Origin: Mycoplasmatota bacterium
GTDB taxonomy: Bacteria; Bacillota_I; Bacilli_A; Haloplasmatales; Haloplasmataceae
Assembly (NCBI GenBank): GCA_018394295.1
Contig: CP074573.1
Location: forward strand, 2,239,156 to 2,303,155
DNA: 64,000 nt
Reading direction: 5' to 3'
Part shown: positions 10,945 to 60,934 of the stretch, piece after piece
Numbering within the stretch: the stretch's first letter is position 1
Layout of the letters: each line of letters begins with the position of its first letter
Notes under the pieces: generated by a model
What the model was told of the DNA's origin: nothing
The model's database searches: none
Seen by the model: the letters and a program-made list of their open reading frames with translations, nothing else
Translations under genes and position numbers: made by a program

Positions 10945-11110
10945 GATTGATATCCAACTAAGAGTTACATTATAAAATTTTACTTATCTTAAAACCCAAT
11001 TTAATGGGGGGTCGTAGTCTCCCACGACCCATATTAGGGGTTATTATGAAAAGGGTATATGGGGGTGCAAAATAATATTTTTGCTGTAATACTACTTCTC
11101 GTAATATTAC
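10923..11110 (-). ncRNA. Candidate C-rich small RNA (about 190 nt)
   Basis: A gene-free unit with its own promoter and terminator on the minus strand. The promoter is TTAACA (11140-11145), 17 bp, TATAAT (11117-11122), so transcription would begin near 11110. The terminator is the stem AGTTGG/CCAACT (10930-10944) followed by eight U. Between them lie hairpins at 11086-11110, 11067-11084 (GCAAAA/TTTTGC) and 11009-11030 (GGGTCGT/ACGACCC). An apparently unpaired C-rich stretch at 11031-11066 carries CACCCCC, ACCCTTTT and AACCCCTAAT. Such C-rich loops are how several Bacillota regulatory RNAs pair with Shine-Dalgarno sites. No protein frame of note is present on either strand. I recognise no known RNA family; 6S and tmRNA features are not evident. 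Confidence 0.62.
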
Positions 11111-15632: not shown

Positions 15633-15658
15633 TATAATAGTGTTGAAAGCGTTTTCTA
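15633..15658 (+). promoter_or_regulatory. ptb operon -10 and cre-like site
   Basis: A -10 TATAAT lies at 15633-15638 (no good -35). The CcpA-site-like TTGAAAGCGTTTTCTA at 15643-15658 matches TGWAANCGNTNWCA at 13 of 14 positions and covers the expected start point, a position where CcpA normally represses. Confidence 0.75.
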
Positions 15659-15674: not shown

Positions 15675-16574
15675 ATGAAAACATTAAAAGAAATCATTAT
15701 GGTCGCTCAAAATAGACCTAATAAAACGATTGCATTAGCTTGTCCAGAAGATCATGAAGTTTTACATGCTGTAGAGGAAGCAGTTAATTTAAACTTATGT
15801 GATTTTATTTTGTTTGGTGATGAGTTAAAAATTCATTCAATCGCAGAAGAAATAAACTTTTCACTGAATCAATGTCAAATAATTAATATCACTGATAAAG
15901 AACAAGCTTGTTTAGAAGCTGTAAAAGCTGTTTCTTCAGGACAAGCTGATGTCGTTATGAAAGGTTTAGTAGACACTGCAATCATTATGAAAAAAGTGCT
16001 TGATAAAGAAGTAGGTCTACGAACTGATAATATTATCAGCCATGTAATGGTCATGCAACTACCTAAATTTGATCGGTTACTCTTCTTAAGTGATGGAGCG
16101 ATGAATATTGATCCAAGTGTTGATCAATTAAAGAAAATTACGATTAATGCCGTAAATTTAGCAAGAGCACTTAGTATTAGCCGACCTAAAGTAGCTTGTA
16201 TTAGCGCCATTGAAAAAGTGAATCCAAAAATGCCTTCTTCTGTAAAATGTCATGAAATTGAACAAATGCAGGAAAAATTAGAAATTGTTCATTGTGACAT
16301 ATGTGGACCTTTAGCAATTGATTTAGCTTTAGATAAGGAATCTGCAAAAACGAAGAACATTAAAAATCCTGTTGCAGGTAATGCAGATATTTTAATCGTT
16401 CCATATATTGAAGTTGCAAATGCTTTATATAAGGGTTGGATGTTCGGTTGTGAAAATGTAAAAAGCGCAGGAATTATTATGGGTGCCAAAGCACCAATAG
16501 TCTTAACATCACGTGCTGACAGTCATGAAACTAAATTAAATTCAATCGCATTAAGTGTACTTATGCAAAATTAA
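15675..16574 (+). CDS. ptb: Phosphate butyryltransferase
   Basis: A 299-residue phosphotransacylase of the PTA_PTB family. It exchanges CoA for phosphate on butyryl-CoA (or isobutyryl-, isovaleryl-CoA), feeding the next gene, butyrate kinase. Family features are VMKGLVDTAIIMKKVLDKE (around 96-114) and the C-terminal GIIMGAKAPIVLTSRAD. I chose the ATG at 15675 with GGGGAGG upstream rather than an in-frame GTG inside that site. It heads a ptb-buk-leucine dehydrogenase operon with 12- and 30-bp gaps. A cre-like site at the promoter suggests glucose repression. Confidence 0.94.
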   Translation: MKTLKEIIMVAQNRPNKTIALACPEDHEVLHAVEEAVNLNLCDFILFGDELKIHSIAEEINFSLNQCQIINITDKEQACLEAVKAVSSGQADVVMKGLVDTAIIMKKVLDKEVGLRTDNIISHVMVMQLPKFDRLLFLSDGAMNIDPSVDQLKKITINAVNLARALSISRPKVACISAIEKVNPKMPSSVKCHEIEQMQEKLEIVHCDICGPLAIDLALDKESAKTKNIKNPVAGNADILIVPYIEVANALYKGWMFGCENVKSAGIIMGAKAPIVLTSRADSHETKLNSIALSVLMQN

Positions 16575-16586
16575 GGGGGAATTATT

Positions 16587-29147: not shown

Positions 29148-29161
29148 TACAAACGCTTACA
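29148..29161. promoter_or_regulatory. cre-like site upstream of the citC promoter
   Basis: TACAAACGCTTACA matches TGWAANCGNTNWCA at 12 of 14 positions. It is centred near -70 relative to the citC start site, a place where CcpA more often activates than represses. Confidence 0.55.
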
Positions 29162-49377: not shown

Positions 49378-50310
49378 TTAGTCTTCTAAATCGTTTGTTT
49401 GAATCAATTGACTTAGATTATCAGAAAATTCTTGAGCAGCATTGAATCCCATATAACGAAGCCTTCTATTAATAGCTGCAACTTCAATTAATGAGGCCAT
49501 ATTACGCCCTGGTCTTATTGGGATTTTAATATAGGATACTTCAGTATTTAAAATTTTTATTTTCGCTTCTTCAACTCCAAGGCGATCATATTCTTGATTT
49601 TGTTCAGCAGTTTCTAAATCAATCACTAATGTAATTCCCTTTTTATGTCGATAGGAACTTGCACCAAACATTTGTACCACATTGATGATACCAATTCCTC
49701 TTATTTCCATAAATTTCTCTAATATTTTGGGTGGTTTTCCAACTAATTTTCCGACTTCTTTTTCATAGATTAAAACATTATCATCGGCTATTAATTTGTG
49801 TCCACGCTTAACAAGTTCTAAAGCTGCTTCACTTTTTCCAATACCACTTTTACCACGAATTAAAACGCCAACACCATGTACATCAACTAATACACCATGC
49901 ATATTGGTCGTTTCCGCTAATTCTTCAGCTAAATAACTAGTAACATCTGTCATAAGTGTTGTGGTATGTTTTGAGCTTCTTAAAATTGGAATTTTATATT
50001 TTTCTGCATTATTTATAAAGACTTGAGGAATATCAAAGCGATTAGAGAATATCAAACATGGTGTCTTTTCTTTAAATAAAAGTTCTACTCTTGTATTTTG
50101 GTCAATTTCATTTAACCAATAAAAAAATGTAACTTCTTTACTTCCAATGATTTGAATCCGTTCCTCTTCATAAAAATCAAATAATCCAGCGAGTTCTAAA
50201 CCAGGTCGTGATAACATCTTTGATTGTATTGGTCTTGTAACGCCCTCTTTACCTGCAATAACTTCTAATTGTAACTCTTTCACTAAATCTTTTACTTTAA
50301 TTTTATTCAT
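49378..50310 (-). CDS. hprK: HPr kinase/phosphorylase
   Basis: A 310-residue bifunctional enzyme, exactly the B. subtilis length. It phosphorylates Ser46 of HPr to form the CcpA corepressor, and reverses it. Walker A is GKSGIGKS (153-160), followed by DDNVLIYEKE and the HprK signature EIRGIGIINVVQMFG. The ATG at 50310 overlaps the previous gene by 8 bp; longer frames are excluded by that overlap. It links the cre-like sites in this window to a functional CcpA pathway. Confidence 0.96.
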   Translation of the reverse strand: MNKIKVKDLVKELQLEVIAGKEGVTRPIQSKMLSRPGLELAGLFDFYEEERIQIIGSKEVTFFYWLNEIDQNTRVELLFKEKTPCLIFSNRFDIPQVFINNAEKYKIPILRSSKHTTTLMTDVTSYLAEELAETTNMHGVLVDVHGVGVLIRGKSGIGKSEAALELVKRGHKLIADDNVLIYEKEVGKLVGKPPKILEKFMEIRGIGIINVVQMFGASSYRHKKGITLVIDLETAEQNQEYDRLGVEEAKIKILNTEVSYIKIPIRPGRNMASLIEVAAINRRLRYMGFNAAQEFSDNLSQLIQTNDLED

Positions 50311-50938
50311 CATCATCACTTCCAATATCATTAATATACTTTGTTTTAAACAGTGAATCACTTTTAAGATAATCAATCAAAGCAATACATAGTAAAACTA
50401 TTAAAACGATTATAATCGATCTTCCTATAGAAATTTTTTCATCTAAAAAATAACTCACAAAATAGAAAATTATCGCATAAATTGCGATGGTTATTAATCC
50501 AATTCTATGCATTGTAAATGAAACCAAATCCGCAACAAAGATAAATGGTTTAACAAATTTATCTATTATTGTAAAACCAAATGCGATAATAAAAACAGTC
50601 GGTTTATTTATAAATAGATTCGGATAAATAATTTCATTTATAATTAATAAAAACCCAATATAAAATAAATACGAAATTAAAAAGTTAACTATTGTTCGTG
50701 AATTAAATATTTTTAAACCCACTTCTTTTGATGTTACTAATAAACTTTTTTTTCTTGTATTACGCTTTTTTTGTTGGTAGTTTCCTAATACCTCTTTAAA
50801 GATATGTGCTTCTAAAATTTTTTCTACTTCACTTTTAGAAAACGTTGTTTCATTATCACTCTTTAGGAATGCTTCAAATAAATCTTCGTATTCTTTTTCT
50901 TTTTCATTAGATTTTTTTAATTCATTATTATCATTCAT
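50303..50938 (-). CDS. Hypothetical membrane protein upstream of hprK (YvlD position)
   Basis: A 211-residue protein. Residues 1-85 are charged and probably cytoplasmic; residues 85-195 hold four hydrophobic segments, and the tail is acidic (SDDDE). In B. subtilis the gene directly upstream of hprK is yvlD, a four-helix phage-holin-IV family membrane protein; the membrane part here could be a relative, but the long N-terminal extension is not usual. RBS GAAGGTGA. Confidence 0.75.
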   Translation of the reverse strand: MNDNNELKKSNEKEKEYEDLFEAFLKSDNETTFSKSEVEKILEAHIFKEVLGNYQQKKRNTRKKSLLVTSKEVGLKIFNSRTIVNFLISYLFYIGFLLIINEIIYPNLFINKPTVFIIAFGFTIIDKFVKPFIFVADLVSFTMHRIGLITIAIYAIIFYFVSYFLDEKISIGRSIIIVLIVLLCIALIDYLKSDSLFKTKYINDIGSDDDE

Positions 50939-51652: not shown

Positions 51653-54496
51653 TTAATTTATATTACGATTTTTATCTTTTTCCAAGACTTTTTTTATATA
51701 ATGCCCCGTGTAAGATACTGGTGATTCTGCGATTTCTTCAGGGGTACCAGAAGCGATAATTTCTCCTCCTTTATCGCCACCTTCAGGGCCTAAATCTATG
51801 ATGTAATCAGCACTTTTAATCACATCTAAATTATGTTCTATAACAATAACTGTTCCGTTTTGATCAACAATATTTTGTATAACCATTAGTAATCGTTTCA
51901 CATCATCAATATGAAGTCCTGTTGTCGGTTCATCAAGAATAAATAAGGTTTTATTGGTGATCCGTTTATGAAGTTCAGAGGCTAATTTAACCCGTTGTGC
52001 TTCTCCACCTGATAAAGTAGTCGCAGGTTGTCCTAATTTAATATATTCTAGTCCAACATCATAAATTGTTTGTAGTTTCCTTCTAATGACAGGTATATTT
52101 TCAAAAAATTCTAATGCATCTTCTACTGTCATATCTAAAATATCGGATATGGTTTTCGCCTTATACTTTACTTCAAGTGTTTCACGATTATACCTTTTCC
52201 CTTGACAAACTTCACAAGGTACATAAACATCCGGTAAAAAGTGCATTTCAATCTTAATTACACCATCCCCTCTACAGGCCTCACACCGTCCTCCTTTTAC
52301 ATTAAAAGAAAAACGTCCTTTTTGATATCCTCGTACTTTTGCTTCATTCGTTTCAGCAAACAAATCACGAATATGATCAAATACTCCAGTGTAAGTTGCA
52401 GGATTAGAACGTGGTGTTCTACCAATTGGGGATTGGTCAACATCAATAATCTTTTCGATATGCTCAAGTCCTTTTATTTTTTGATGACGACCTGGTTTCT
52501 TTCTTGATCTATAAATTGATTGAGCAATCCCTTTATATAAAATATCATTCACTAATGTTGATTTTCCACTACCAGATACACCTGTCACAACAATCAATTT
52601 CCCCAATGGAAATTTGACATTTATATTTTTTAAATTATTTTCACTGGCCTTCACAACTTCAAGGAATAATCCATTCCCAACTCTTCTTTTTTCTGGTAAT
52701 GAAATGTGTTTTTTACCTGAAAGATATTGACCGGTTAAGGAATGGTCATTTTGCATTAATTCCTTTGGAGAGCCTTGGGCAATCACATCTCCTCCATGAA
52801 TACCCGCTCCTGGTCCAATGTCAATTATACAATCAGCTTCTAGCATTGTGTCTTCATCATGTTCAACAACGATTAAGGTGTTCCCTAAATCTCTCATCGA
52901 TTTTAAAGTCCCAATCAATCGATAATTATCTCTTTGATGAAGCCCAATTGATGGCTCATCTAATACATATAAGACACCTGTTAAACGAGAACCAATTTGA
53001 GTTGCTAAACGGATTCGTTGTGCTTCTCCACCTGATAAGGTTCCAGCTTTTCTACTAAGGGTTAAATAATTTAATCCAACATTTACTAAAAAAGATAGGC
53101 GTTCTTTTATTTCTTTGATAATCATATCAGAAATCTTCATTTCTTTTGGTGACAATTTTAATGATTGAACATGCTTTAATGCTTGTTCAATAGACATTTC
53201 TGTGAATTCGTAAATATTTTTGTCACCTACAAACACAGAAAGTGCTTCTTCTGAAAGACGTTGTCCATTACACTTTGGACATGTCTCATCAGCCATCATA
53301 CTTTCAAACCAGTCACGAATATAGTTTGATGAAGTACTTTTATATCTTCTTTCATAACTATTTATGATACCTTCAAAATAATCTCTTTTTTCGTGATGAA
53401 TATTTCCTTCACTTACAAAAGAAAACTTTATTTCAGATTTAGAACCATACATGATGATATCTATTTCTTTTTTAGTCAATTCTTTAAAGGGTTTATTTAG
53501 ATTTATTCCATAATGATTACAAGTAATCGCTAATTGTTTATAAAAATATGTATCCGTATTTTCTAAACCTCTGATTGCTCCCTCAGCAATTGATTTTTCA
53601 TTATCAGGAACTAATAAATCAATACTAATTTTTCTTTTAAACCCTAATCCACTACATTCATCACAAGCACCAAATGGAGAATTGAAAGAAAACAGTCTTG
53701 GTTCTAACTCACCAACGGTAAAATCACACATTGGACAAGAAAACTTCTCACTGAAAATCATTTCTTCATGCCCTATAATATCAACCAAAACTTTTCCTTG
53801 ACCTAATTTCAGTGCTGTTTCTAAAGAGTCATATAATCGTGATGAAATACCTTCTTTAATAACAACTCTATCAATAATTACTTCAATATTATGTTTTTTA
53901 TTTTTATCTAATTCTATATTTTCTTCTAAATCATGCAAAGAACCATCCACTCGTACACGAACATAACCATCTTTTTTGAGTTTCTCAAAATCATTTTTAA
54001 AGGTTCCTTTTTTCAATGCAGCAATTGGTGCTAATATTTGCATTTTAGTTCGTTCTTCAAATTCTAATAATCTATCTACCATTTGTTCAATTGTTTGTGA
54101 TTGTATTTCTACATGATGTGTAGGACAAATTGGATGTCCGATACGAGCATATAAAAGTCGCATATAATCATAAATCTCAGTAACAGTCCCAACGGTAGAA
54201 CGAGGGTTACGACTCGTTGTTTTTTGGTCAATCGATATAGCTGGTGATAATCCTTCTATACTATCCACATCAGGCTTATCCATATTACCTAGAAATTGTC
54301 TAGCATAAGCAGATAAACTTTCAACATATCTTCTTTGACCTTCCGCATAGATTGTATCAAAAGCTAAGCTTGATTTTCCACTACCAGATAAACCTGTCAT
54401 TACCACAAGTTGTCCACGAGGTATACGAACATCAATATTTTTTAAATTATTTTCTCTAGCACCTTTTACGACAATATCGTTTTGTTCTTTTATCAT
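51653..54496 (-). CDS. uvrA: UvrABC excision nuclease subunit A
   Basis: A 947-residue DNA-damage sensor with two ABC ATPase modules. Walker A motifs [14 protein letters not shown] (N-terminal) and [15 protein letters not shown] (C-terminal), two LSGGEAQR signatures, and zinc sites CPMC...CDEC and CEAC...CEVC are all visible. It finds helix-distorting lesions together with UvrB, which is not encoded here. A LexA-box-like sequence lies upstream at 54546-54559. Confidence 0.98.
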
Positions 54497-54559: not shown

Positions 54560-54631
54560 CTTTTTATGTAATTTTTTTTATTTTTTTACATTATAACTAT
54601 TATTTCAAAGGTGAAAACATTTTCATTTTTT

Positions 54632-54645
54632 ATAAAACGCTTTCA
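54632..54645. promoter_or_regulatory. cre-like site upstream of the second candidate small RNA
   Basis: Minus strand reads TTGAAAGCGTTTTAT, sharing TTGAAAGCGTTTT with the ptb site; 12 of 14 in the plus orientation. It is centred about -54 from the RNA's predicted start, the spacing of CcpA-activated promoters such as ackA. A perfect palindrome TGAAAACATTTTCA (54612-54625) lies just left of it. Confidence 0.5.
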
Positions 54646-54657
54646 ATTTATTTTTTA

Positions 54658-54686
54658 TTGACTTCATAATACCAAGGTGATAGAAT
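54658..54686 (+). promoter_or_regulatory. Promoter of the second candidate small RNA
   Basis: TTGACT (54658-54663), 17 bp, TAGAAT (54681-54686) with TGA before it. It is the same -35/-10 pair and spacing as rrn promoter P3. Confidence 0.75.
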
Positions 54687-54830
54687 ATATTTCGGTGTGA
54701 GAGCACACTATTTTTAAAATGTCGTTTCTCATAATCAAATCCCTCAAACAAACTCATACTTATCCCTTAAACTCTTTTTTTAAATATTTATCTCCCCCCG
54801 AAAAAAAACAGTGTACAACTGTTTTTTTTC
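54687..54830 (+). ncRNA. Candidate C-rich small RNA (about 140 nt)
   Basis: A rrn-like promoter (54658-54686) and a terminator (54801-54830) enclose a stretch without a reading frame, between the divergent uvrA promoter and a convergent gene. The 5' end forms the hairpin GTGTG-AGAG-CACAC (54695-54708). The middle is unstructured and has three C-rich motifs: ATCCCTC (54739-54745), ATCCCTTAAA (54762-54771) and CTCCCCCCG (54792-54800). TTTCGG near the 5' end can pair with CCGAAA near the 3' end. C-rich single-stranded motifs are typical of Bacillota RNAs that pair with ribosome-binding sites. A cre-like site upstream suggests carbon control. No known family is recognised. Confidence 0.6.
54801..54830 (+). 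terminator. Terminator of the second candidate small RNA
   Basis: ACAGT, loop GTACA, ACTGT, flanked by eight A and eight T. Confidence 0.82.
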
Positions 54831-54841
54831 TTTTTATATAA

Positions 54842-54880
54842 TAAAAAAAAACAGCAATTACTTGCTGCTTTTTTTTTATA
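54842..54880 (-). terminator. Terminator of the DUF4397 gene
   Basis: Minus strand: AGCAGCAA, loop, TTGCTGTT, then a long T run. It faces the small-RNA terminator. Confidence 0.85.
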
Positions 54881-55727
54881 ACATCATACTTTTATCATTA
54901 AATACAATCGCTTCTAAGCCAGGTGTTCCATTTACTAAACCAATTGCATATATTGAAAGCATATCATTTGGATTAATCACAACATTAGGAACAGTCAGAA
55001 CTACTTGATCCATACCAGCTGGTCTTACTTGTAAAGTATAAGTTCCAGGAGCAACATTAATGTAGTCAGTTACTGCTTTATAAGGAACATTTCTAAATAA
55101 TACGGTACCATCAGGTAATGTTATATCAACTGCTGGAGCATTTGGTGAGAAATGAATAAATCGAACACTTGCTTCTTCTGCTAAATGTGAATCACGTTTT
55201 TCTGGTATTTGATATGGTTTGGGTTGTTGATAACCATATTGACATGGATAACCCATTCCACATCCAGAAGCTGGTTGATTAAAAATACTTTGTTGTTCTG
55301 GCATTTGTTGTCCCATACCATATGGTTGCATCATTTGTGGTTGGGTATTTTGTGGCATTATCTGTGGCTGCATTTCATAAGGCATCTGTTGAGGTTGCGT
55401 ATATGGCATCATTTGATCATCATAGAACATTTTTTCATCTGTTACTTGTAAGATTAATATGTCTGATCCATCTTTTGTTGTTACTGCAACTAGTTTTTGA
55501 CCCTCTATATCTAAATTCTGATCTAATAATAATTTATTACCAGCTGTAGTAAAAACTTTAACATTATAATTACCCTTAGGAACTGGTATCATTGGTGTTG
55601 ATTGTCTATATGCTAATCCTCTTATAATTGGACGATCATTTAAAGTAATATTAATTGGTTCTGCCATTCTAACATCATGAACAAATCTTAAGCTTGTTGG
55701 CTGCTCAATTGGATTATAAATATTCAT
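54876..55727 (-). CDS. Protein with two DUF4397 domains and a Gln/Met/Pro-rich linker
   Basis: A 283-residue protein. Two DUF4397 beta-sandwich domains: residues about 8-105 (TSLRFVHDVRMAEPINITLND) and about 180-275 (ASVRFIHFSPNAPAVDITLPD). Between them lies a Gln/Met/Pro-rich linker (about 110-165) with a CGMGYPCQYG segment. There is no signal peptide, yet the domain is usually found on cell surfaces or in spore coats. I chose the ATG at 55727 with GGAGGG upstream. Function unknown; the two Cys in the linker could cross-link. Confidence 0.85.
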   Translation of the reverse strand: MNIYNPIEQPTSLRFVHDVRMAEPINITLNDRPIIRGLAYRQSTPMIPVPKGNYNVKVFTTAGNKLLLDQNLDIEGQKLVAVTTKDGSDILILQVTDEKMFYDDQMMPYTQPQQMPYEMQPQIMPQNTQPQMMQPYGMGQQMPEQQSIFNQPASGCGMGYPCQYGYQQPKPYQIPEKRDSHLAEEASVRFIHFSPNAPAVDITLPDGTVLFRNVPYKAVTDYINVAPGTYTLQVRPAGMDQVVLTVPNVVINPNDMLSIYAIGLVNGTPGLEAIVFNDKSMML

Positions 55728-55811
55728 TACATCTATCCCTCCTATAAACATCTAGTATATTATATGTATCCTAGTCAAAATGCACATGGGCTAACAAGCA
55801 TTTTTTAAAAA

Positions 55812-58342: not shown

Positions 58343-60934
58343 ATGAAAAAGCAAATCTGTTTTTTTACATTAATGTTTTTAACATTTTTAACTGTCAATC
58401 ACATAACAATCGCAAGTACAAATGAAGATATCTTGTATAAATATGGTACACAAGAACCTGTAACCTATTACAATACGACTAACCCTGTTTATCTTCCTAA
58501 AGGTACTTCTTATTCAAAACAAGAGTTTCGTGGCGTATGGGTTACAACCATCTGGAATCTAGATGTTCCTAAACACACAAGTGAAGAGCAATATAAAACG
58601 ATGTTTACAAAGATTCTAAATACATTAGACGCTTATAACATGAATGTATTAGTCTATCAAGTAAGACCTAAGAATGATGCAATGTATGAATCAGAACTTA
58701 ACCCATGGTCACGATATATGACTGGAATAGAGGGTGTAAGTCCTGGGTGGGATCCATTACCTTGGATGATTCAAGAAGCCCATAAACGGGGGATTGAATT
58801 TCATGCCTGGTTTAACCCCTATCGAGTATTCGTGGAGGGATTAAGCCCTGATAATTTCGCAGCAAAACATCCTGAATATGTTCTTAGACACAGTACTGGA
58901 AATGAGATTTTCAATCCAGGAATCCCTGATGTACAACAATTTATTATTGACACGGTAATGGAAGTCGCTAATAAATATGATATTGATGGCGTTCATTTTG
59001 ATGATTATTTTTATCCATATGGAGGACTAAATCCCAGATATGATGCTAATGAATATCAACAGCACAATAATCTTAATTTATCTCTAGAAGATTGGCGACG
59101 TGAAAATGTCAATACAGTCATCAGAGGCGTTAAAAATGGGTTAACCCAAATCAATAACGAACAGAATAAAGCAATTAAATTTGGTATAAGTCCATTTGGG
59201 ATATGGGCAAATAAATCTAGTCATCCACTTGGTTCAAATACTAAGGGTGGTGTTGAAAGTTACTCAGAACTATTTGCTGATTCATATAAATGGGTAAAGG
59301 AAGAATGGATTGATTATATCGTTCCCCAATCTTACTTTGAATTTACAACTTCAAGTGCACCTTATGCAGATGTCATAGATTGGTGGGCAGATCTTGTAGA
59401 TGGAACTGACGTTAATTTATATACTGGTCAGTCTATTTACCGATATAAAGAGAACGGTTGGAACACAGGTCCTTGGGCTGACCCTAAAGAATTAAGTAAC
59501 CACCTTTTATATGATTCTAAACATGAGGAAATCACTGGAAGTGTTTACTTTAGATACCAATATTTGAAATATACATCTCCATTTAATTTAACCTATGGTC
59601 AAAGTATGTTAAGAAATTATTTCTTTAAATATGAAGTATTACCACCTGCTTATAAAAACGTGGATACTACATTACCAGATGCTCCAGAACAATTAATGAT
59701 TCAAAAGGTAAATAATGGAAATAAACTAACATGGAAACATGATGATCAAGTTAAAGCTTACTATATCTATCGTTATACAGAAGATGAGCAACCAACCTTA
59801 GAATCAATCAAAAATGTCGTTGATATTGTCTGGCCAACAGAAGATGATACTATTTCATTTACTGATGAAACTGCCTTAGATGGTGTGTTTTATCAATATT
59901 TTGTGACTGCATTTGATAAAGCAAACAATGAAAGTCAAGCAACAGGAATAACGACTAATGATTTTGTAACCTATGAAGATTTAATTCTTGAGATTGAACA
60001 AAACATAGAAAATGCAAATGATTCACAAGAAGCATTTGATAACTTATTAAATGATATATCAGATAAGATATTACAGATTGAACAATTAAACACACTTGGA
60101 AGTAGTATAGATTCAAATCTAACAGATTTAAGAAAGGATATGGCATCTACTACTGAAGAAATTGAGAATCTACTTACAAATGAGCTACAAGCAATAAATC
60201 AGTTAATGACTGAATTAGAAACAGATATTCAAAATAATCAGTTAAATAAAGAAGAATTAGAACAAAAATTACAGACGATTGAAGAAAAAGAAGATGAATT
60301 TCTAACTAAAATCAATGATATTAAAATAAAATATGATACATTGGCAAATTTATTTTCCCTTATTTCAAATGATTTTATCACCTATAATAAGGACTATCAA
60401 CAAGCTCCAACCCTTAATGAATTGGAAACCGATTCATTAAATGATAAATTAGATGATATTAAACACTGGTTGGATATAATTAATGAAAAGAAAGATGTTA
60501 TTGATGAATCTGATCAAACATTAATTAATGAAATCACCTCATTAAATAATCGTTTTATAACTAATAAAGAACAATTAAATACCCTTAATGAATTAACTAA
60601 CGAAGCAGAAGTTATTATAAATTCCTTACCAGATGTTACAAATCAATTAGAAAGCAAAATTAATAATACTAATCCGTTATATAGTAATTTTGAACAATTA
60701 TATAACTCTGTAAACACTAAGAAAACTGAGGTTGACTCTAAAATCAAGCAACTAACAATAAAAATTAATGAATTAAAGGAAAATGATGAACAAGAACCCA
60801 ATGATATTGAAGAACAAGAACCTAATGAAATTGATGAAAAGGAAGATTACAATATTATAATCATCGGTGTCGCTGCATCATTTATCTTTATATATGGTAT
60901 CTTCAAATTAATAACAAAAGTGCAACATAAATAA
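58343..60934 (+). CDS. Surface-anchored glycoside hydrolase-like (GHL10) protein with long coiled coil
   Basis: An 863-residue secreted protein. A signal peptide (about 1-25) is followed by a GHL10/DUF187 TIM-barrel domain (about 58-400) with FRGVWVTT, YQVRPKNDAMY, FHAWFNPYR, DIDGVHFDDYFYP and ISPFGIW. A fibronectin-III-like domain follows (about 440-540). Residues about 545-820 are strongly helical, with repeated Glu/Leu/Asn patterns suggesting coiled coils, then EQEPNDIEEQEPNEIDE and a C-terminal membrane helix (about 838-857). GHL10 proteins are thought to act on glycans; the substrate is unknown. An IS lies 23 bp upstream of the start and probably separates it from its promoter. RBS GGGTGGGG. 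Confidence 0.88.
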   Translation: MKKQICFFTLMFLTFLTVNHITIASTNEDILYKYGTQEPVTYYNTTNPVYLPKGTSYSKQEFRGVWVTTIWNLDVPKHTSEEQYKTMFTKILNTLDAYNMNVLVYQVRPKNDAMYESELNPWSRYMTGIEGVSPGWDPLPWMIQEAHKRGIEFHAWFNPYRVFVEGLSPDNFAAKHPEYVLRHSTGNEIFNPGIPDVQQFIIDTVMEVANKYDIDGVHFDDYFYPYGGLNPRYDANEYQQHNNLNLSLEDWRRENVNTVIRGVKNGLTQINNEQNKAIKFGISPFGIWANKSSHPLGSNTKGGVESYSELFADSYKWVKEEWIDYIVPQSYFEFTTSSAPYADVIDWWADLVDGTDVNLYTGQSIYRYKENGWNTGPWADPKELSNHLLYDSKHEEITGSVYFRYQYLKYTSPFNLTYGQSMLRNYFFKYEVLPPAYKNVDTTLPDAPEQLMIQKVNNGNKLTWKHDDQVKAYYIYRYTEDEQPTLESIKNVVDIVWPTEDDTISFTDETALDGVFYQYFVTAFDKANNESQATGITTNDFVTYEDLILEIEQNIENANDSQEAFDNLLNDISDKILQIEQLNTLGSSIDSNLTDLRKDMASTTEEIENLLTNELQAINQLMTELETDIQNNQLNKEELEQKLQTIEEKEDEFLTKINDIKIKYDTLANLFSLISNDFITYNKDYQQAPTLNELETDSLNDKLDDIKHWLDIINEKKDVIDESDQTLINEITSLNNRFITNKEQLNTLNELTNEAEVIINSLPDVTNQLESKINNTNPLYSNFEQLYNSVNTKKTEVDSKIKQLTIKINELKENDEQEPNDIEEQEPNEIDEKEDYNIIIIGVAASFIFIYGIFKLITKVQHK

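Follow-up and report, generated by a model that had tools for sequence, protein, structure and literature searches.

Within the 64,000-nt stretch analysed here (the window), a C-rich small RNA (sRNA) unit comprising cre-like sites, promoter, hairpin, body and terminator occupies positions 54612-54830 on the forward strand (Table 1). The gap that holds it lies between uvrA (51653-54496, minus strand) and another gene (54876-55751, minus strand), and no conserved open reading frame was found across it from uvrA to 54876. The first-pass annotation of this DNA had described a 5′ hairpin, three C-rich motifs and a strong terminator in a gene-free gap, and all of these are in place. Its likening of the TTGACT-17-TAGAAT promoter to an rrn promoter is likewise borne out, as the same hexamers and spacing recur upstream of a partial 16S gene (1749-1721, minus strand). 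Two such promoters in one window compare with a chance expectation of 0.03, a count of two was reached in none of the shuffles, and both promoters carry GTGA before the -10 element. The sRNA promoter hexamers of the relatives differ (TTGACG or TTGACA, TATAAT or TAAAAT), so that “rrn-like” should be read here as just “strong.” An hprK-like gene, named from its sequence, is found close to the sRNA locus (49378-50376).

Table 1. Features of the C-rich sRNA locus, with positions counted from the first letter of the window.
Feature	Sequence	Position	Strand	Remarks
Distal cre-like site	TGAAAACATTTTCA	54612-54625		13/14; centre at -74.5
Proximal cre-like site	ATAAAACGCTTTCA (TGAAAGCGTTTTAT on the minus strand)	54632-54645		13/14; centre at -54.5
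Sigma-A type promoter	TTGACT-17-TAGAAT	54658-54686	+	Comparable promoter at the equivalent position in all copies
Predicted sRNA, about 138 nt		54693-54830	+	Carried by 8/8 family genomes; start site placed by the -10 element
5′ hairpin	GGTGTGAGAGCACACT	within 54694-54709	+	-6.7 kcal/mol; z -3.0
Conserved block, start of body	GTCGTTTCTCATA	54721-54733	+	8/9 copies
Anti-initiation unit 1	CTCATAATCAAATCCC	54728-54743	+	Complement of GGG-N8-AUGAG
Anti-initiation unit 2	CTCATACTTATCCC	54753-54766	+	Holds the C-run 54764-54766
Unit 3	ATTTATCTCCCCCC	54786-54799	+	TAT here; CAT in most relatives
Rho-independent terminator		54800-54830	+	-14.5 kcal/mol; z -5.7

The sRNA unit is present in all eight Haloplasmataceae genomes sampled. 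When 60 related genomes were searched with the DNA sequence, all seven family-mates were matched (E 1e-16 to 1e-24), and a covariance model derived from nine copies of the unit recovered the eight family genomes. In 288 further genomes of the class, the model gave a single weak match (G097, E 5e-4), which falls inside a surE-like coding sequence and was attributed to chance. Named carriers of a 19-base pattern include a Haloplasma contractile MAG and Inordinaticella fortuita; beyond Haloplasmataceae/Bacilli, the pattern gave single matches in unrelated phyla, which were also taken as chance. When flanks were read by eye, uvrA adjoined the unit upstream in seven of the eight genomes and was not seen on the contig of the remaining one (G005). 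Genome G005 carries a tandem duplication of the sRNA gene (L006:533-742 and L006:958-1120), in which each copy has its own proximal cre, promoter and terminator; the second copy has diverged, and its cre is the proximal one only. The sRNA had no Rfam match at gathering score, and sub-threshold matches, which fell mostly on the two terminators and were all far below the cut-off, were discarded. A literature search found no sRNA study on Haloplasmataceae. The locus is almost certainly a real RNA gene, very probably for a small regulatory RNA, which is without an Rfam match and known so far from this one bacterial family.

Two side observations concern other repeated or conserved elements. A second conserved C-rich RNA with a terminator lies at 11160-10925 of the window (minus strand), between aminotransferase-like and tex-like genes, and is found in seven of the eight family genomes (its own included), with relatives 80-92% identical; it is probably the first of the two C-rich RNAs of the first-pass annotation. 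An identical 40-aa frame (MKIYRHIQPLDTILK...) occurs at four places in the genome (L189, L201, L214 and L220) and is probably part of a mobile element.

The 5′ hairpin is well supported by the alignment, with 92.6% of cells paired against 33-69% in slid controls, and two of its six pairs have changed in both partners; its covariation score was reached by one of 500 shuffles and by none of the slid controls. The terminator is kept in all copies, with a stem that differs among genera. The body between them has a folding energy of 0 kcal/mol and no consensus structure, and contains only 2-3 G in 91-164 nt. Equally G-poor, C-rich 90-nt stretches are found at 14 places in the 464 kb sampled, both strands counted and the sRNA body included. 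No conserved start codon or frame was found across the sRNA copies.

The C-rich motifs, on whose retention in related genomes the first-pass proposal had been staked, are kept throughout the family as 3-8 C-runs per copy, nearly all of them unpaired in the in silico ensemble. In the window copy, runs of three, three and six C lie at 54741-54743, 54764-54766 and 54794-54799. A recurring unit has the form CTCATA-N-CCC(C), the complement of which, GGG(G)-N-TATGAG, reads as a Shine-Dalgarno sequence, a spacer and a start codon. In most copies, CAT is found 5-10 nt upstream of most C-runs, and the unit thus complements the whole Shine-Dalgarno-spacer-AUG arrangement. This placement applies to 6/7 C-runs in both G007 and G006 (P 0 in each), 4/5 in G001 (P 0.001), 3/5 in G004 (P 0.015), 3/6 in G003 (P 0.05), 2/3 in the window copy (P 0.06) and 2/5 in the second G005 copy (P 0.18), where P was obtained by fixing the C-runs and shuffling the remaining letters 5000 times. 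The array arose in part from duplication of a 51-base unit, so the CAT placements are not independent of each other and these P values overstate their independence. The GGG-to-ATG spacing of sampled genes, mainly 5-12 nt, fits the geometry of the unit. The 21-nt sequence CTCATACTTATCCCTTAAACT at unit 2 is identical in seven of the eight genomes and has one mismatch in the eighth, and the window copy lacks some units that its relatives keep. The pattern AGGG-N-TATGAGA is not enriched in the window's own genome (six occurrences vs eight in the reversed control). The earlier description of a stand-alone sRNA with Shine-Dalgarno-complementary C-rich motifs is supported, and the sRNA is conserved.

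The cre-like site that had been noted near -54 corresponds to the proximal site, but there are two such sites upstream of the promoter, not one. With the start site taken as 7 nt after the -10 element, the proximal site scores 12-13/14 at -54.5 or -55.5 in 9/9 copies, and the distal site 12-13/14 near -75 in 7/9; G006 and the second G005 copy showed no distal site. Sites scoring at least 13/14 occur approximately once per 50 kb in a 400-kb genome sample. The distance from the proximal cre to the -35 element is constant across copies, and the sequence between them varies. An orthologue of CcpA is encoded in all eight family genomes, with Bacillus CcpA as the best solved relatives over the full length, and with scores below NCBI's equivalog cut-off. 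A perfect 14/14 cre lies in the ptb-buk leader (window 15644-15657), between promoter and start codon, and across the family the ptb leader site scores 14/14 in six genomes and 13/14 in the other two. Its conservation in all eight indicates that the cre motif is in use here, and its location suggests CcpA repression of the operon. Further cre-like sites (13-14/14) are found in the window at 29148, 29283, 35123, 39196 and 40908, near genes resembling those of histidine degradation and the glutamate-mutase pathway; the window is far richer in such sites than the genome sample.

In B. subtilis, CcpA activates ackA, pta and ilvB from a cre upstream of the -35 element (PMC3463425), and a cre is found upstream of the -35 in 9/9 copies of the sRNA gene. 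A conserved cre at the CcpA-activating position makes the sRNA probably sugar-responsive, and CcpA probably activates its transcription, as judged from site position. The opposite sign, in which CcpA represses the gene and the product is a starvation RNA like RsaI, is unlikely. CcpA sites mostly repress, and lev is an exception among upstream sites in being repressed from one (PMC3463425); RsaI and RosA are also both under CcpA repression (PMC9266662; PMC8216469). However, the sites centred at -54.5 and -74.5 lie fully upstream of the -35 element instead of overlapping the promoter, as is typical for repression, and no other activator site was recognised.

Candidate targets were evaluated in samples of 464 kb from the window's own genome (G000) and 284 kb from G002. 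The duplex energy with the sRNA body was -14.0 kcal/mol at start regions vs -9.2 and -8.7 kcal/mol at control positions. In G000 and G007, shuffled bodies with their C-runs preserved paired with start regions roughly as strongly as the original, so the preference for start regions reflects a generic anti-Shine-Dalgarno affinity that stems from the C-runs alone. On balance, the sRNA more probably than not acts on start regions.

None of the three genes put forward in the first-pass annotation emerged as a convincing target. CCCTTAA at 54764-54770 is indeed complementary to TTAAGGG at 16571-16577, the proposed buk site. At 7 nt, this match is about as long as the longest match that a sampled start region has on average (6.9). 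The buk gene ranks 12th among 53 window genes, and TTAAGGG occurs in four of the 383 start regions sampled and is lost from the buk sites of relatives. The ptb gene has a 9-nt match (TAAGTATGA) in its own genome and ranks fifth, and its relatives lack the match. For the gene at 58343, which comes 15th among the 53, no match exceeds 6 nt. No target was common to both Haloplasma genomes at up to two mismatches of the best-conserved unit, or to all eight genomes at up to three.

Two individual pairings exceed these candidates in length or energy. The longest match in the G000 sample is a perfect 15-nt complement of the conserved unit (L143:9044, minus strand; G000:C1:2589041-2589055), which covers the Shine-Dalgarno sequence and start codon of a lipoprotein gene and is the best of 383 start regions at -28.4 kcal/mol, in a stretch that joined the sample only after a pattern search had found it. 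The gene encodes a binding-protein lipoprotein, is followed by a permease-like frame and looks to be of the iron-siderophore/cobalamin type; no counterpart was found in G001. The start region of alr (alanine racemase) reaches -37.4 kcal/mol in G002 (L064), where the best of 264 other genes reaches -27.4 kcal/mol, and -36.0 kcal/mol in G007 (L056), which belongs to the same genus. The predicted pairing in these two genomes extends over 45 nt, is nearly collinear and takes in the sRNA's entire conserved 3′ block; it was equalled by 33 (G002) and 13 (G007) of 1000 C-run-preserving shuffles. The alr gene of G001 is unremarkable (rank 202/383). As a candidate, alr in one genus is the strongest target lead, and a lead only.

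Taken together, a CcpA-activated, trans-acting sRNA with redundant anti-Shine-Dalgarno units that block translation initiation is the moderately favoured reading. When a preferred sugar is present, CcpA would bind the cre sites upstream of the promoter and activate transcription of the sRNA, the inferred product consisting of the 5′ hairpin, an unstructured and almost G-free body with several C-rich units, and the terminator. Each unit would pair with the Shine-Dalgarno sequence of a target mRNA, and often with its start codon too, and the redundant units may stop ribosomes from loading on mRNAs that are not needed in sugar. The predicted translational repression would be independent of Hfq, which was detected in none of the eight Haloplasmataceae genomes at E 0.001, where positive controls were detected. 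If this reading is correct, Haloplasmataceae have an sRNA family of their own in which CcpA raises rather than lowers a C-rich, Shine-Dalgarno-blocking RNA and so ties sugar supply to translation. The 3 to 8 C-runs across species, set in a G-free body, would then form a natural series for relating multiplicity to sRNA strength.

A more speculative version, for which the chances appear fairly low, is that the sugar-induced RNA strings together generic anti-initiation elements in tandem, each complementary to a Shine-Dalgarno sequence, spacer and AUG, and silences translation broadly by virtue of how many units it has, not through one exact pairing. Such an array would give bacteria that lack Hfq an RNA branch of CcpA control.

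It is rather improbable that the sRNA is half of a sponge pair, in which its C-runs either sequester a G-rich RNA or are themselves sequestered by one. There are precedents, as RoxS and FsrA are captured by the CcpA-repressed RosA, and C-rich sRNAs of Bacillus and Staphylococcus meet CcpA-controlled G-rich sponges (PMC8216469; PMC9266662); a repeated, unstructured body would also suit titration. Against this, complements of the two conserved units (up to three mismatches) turned up only at the sRNA locus of the family itself and at dispersed sites that the genomes do not share, and no partner RNA was seen. Slightly less credit still is due to titration of a protein, such as a cold-shock protein, by the C-rich units. 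Single-stranded, repeated C-runs of variable number (3-8) would be consistent with this, as would the failure to find a family-wide mRNA target, but the units are not identical, the feature they share, CAT-spacer-CCC, has the geometry of an initiation region, and there is no candidate protein. A conserved peptide gene or leader is scarcely credible: the window copy does have a short frame that starts at an ATG near 54719, but the G002 body has no start codon, a stop falls within 10 codons in G003, and indels are not in threes. The RNA ends at a terminator, and the gene that follows lies on the opposite strand.

The preferred reading, a CcpA-activated sRNA that blocks initiation, can be compared with several known regulators. 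RsaI of Staphylococcus aureus, which the first-pass annotation had offered as an analogue, is an sRNA under CcpA control that pairs with Shine-Dalgarno sequences and thereby represses translation; the analogy stands as far as CcpA control, but CcpA represses RsaI, whereas the cre positions here imply activation, and RsaI also binds other sRNAs (PMC9266662). The Rfam scan showed no relation between the two, as the RsaI (RsaOG) covariance model had no match to the sRNA at gathering score or among matches to E 1. RoxS/RsaE, FsrA and CsfG resemble the Haloplasmataceae sRNA in that their C-rich regions bind central-metabolism mRNAs (PMC8216469), but RoxS is controlled by Rex, FsrA by Fur and CsfG by sigma-F/G, whereas an upstream cre is found here. 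The RsaE/RoxS covariance model from Rfam did not match the sRNA. The csRNAs of streptococci are small, multicopy and act on start regions. They differ in being controlled by CiaR, and the sole weak csRNA match in the window (11005-11098, minus strand; 25 bits vs a cut-off of 57) is at a different locus.

A parallel in design is found in LhrC1-5 of Listeria monocytogenes, which are G-poor and multicopy and bind upstream of the target start codon through redundant UCCC or CU-rich sites, three UCCC sites in LhrC, with no need for Hfq in the interaction with lapB (PMC4132741). Redundant sites of this type in a G-poor RNA are also found in the Haloplasmataceae sRNA (3-8 C-runs, 2-3 G). The sRNA was not matched by the LhrC covariance model from Rfam, and the two differ in layout and control: LhrC sites are distributed over two loops and a linker under LisRK control, whereas the Haloplasmataceae sRNA presents up to 8 C-runs in one unstructured array, and its promoter carries cre sites. 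The likeness to LhrC is one of kind, not of descent.
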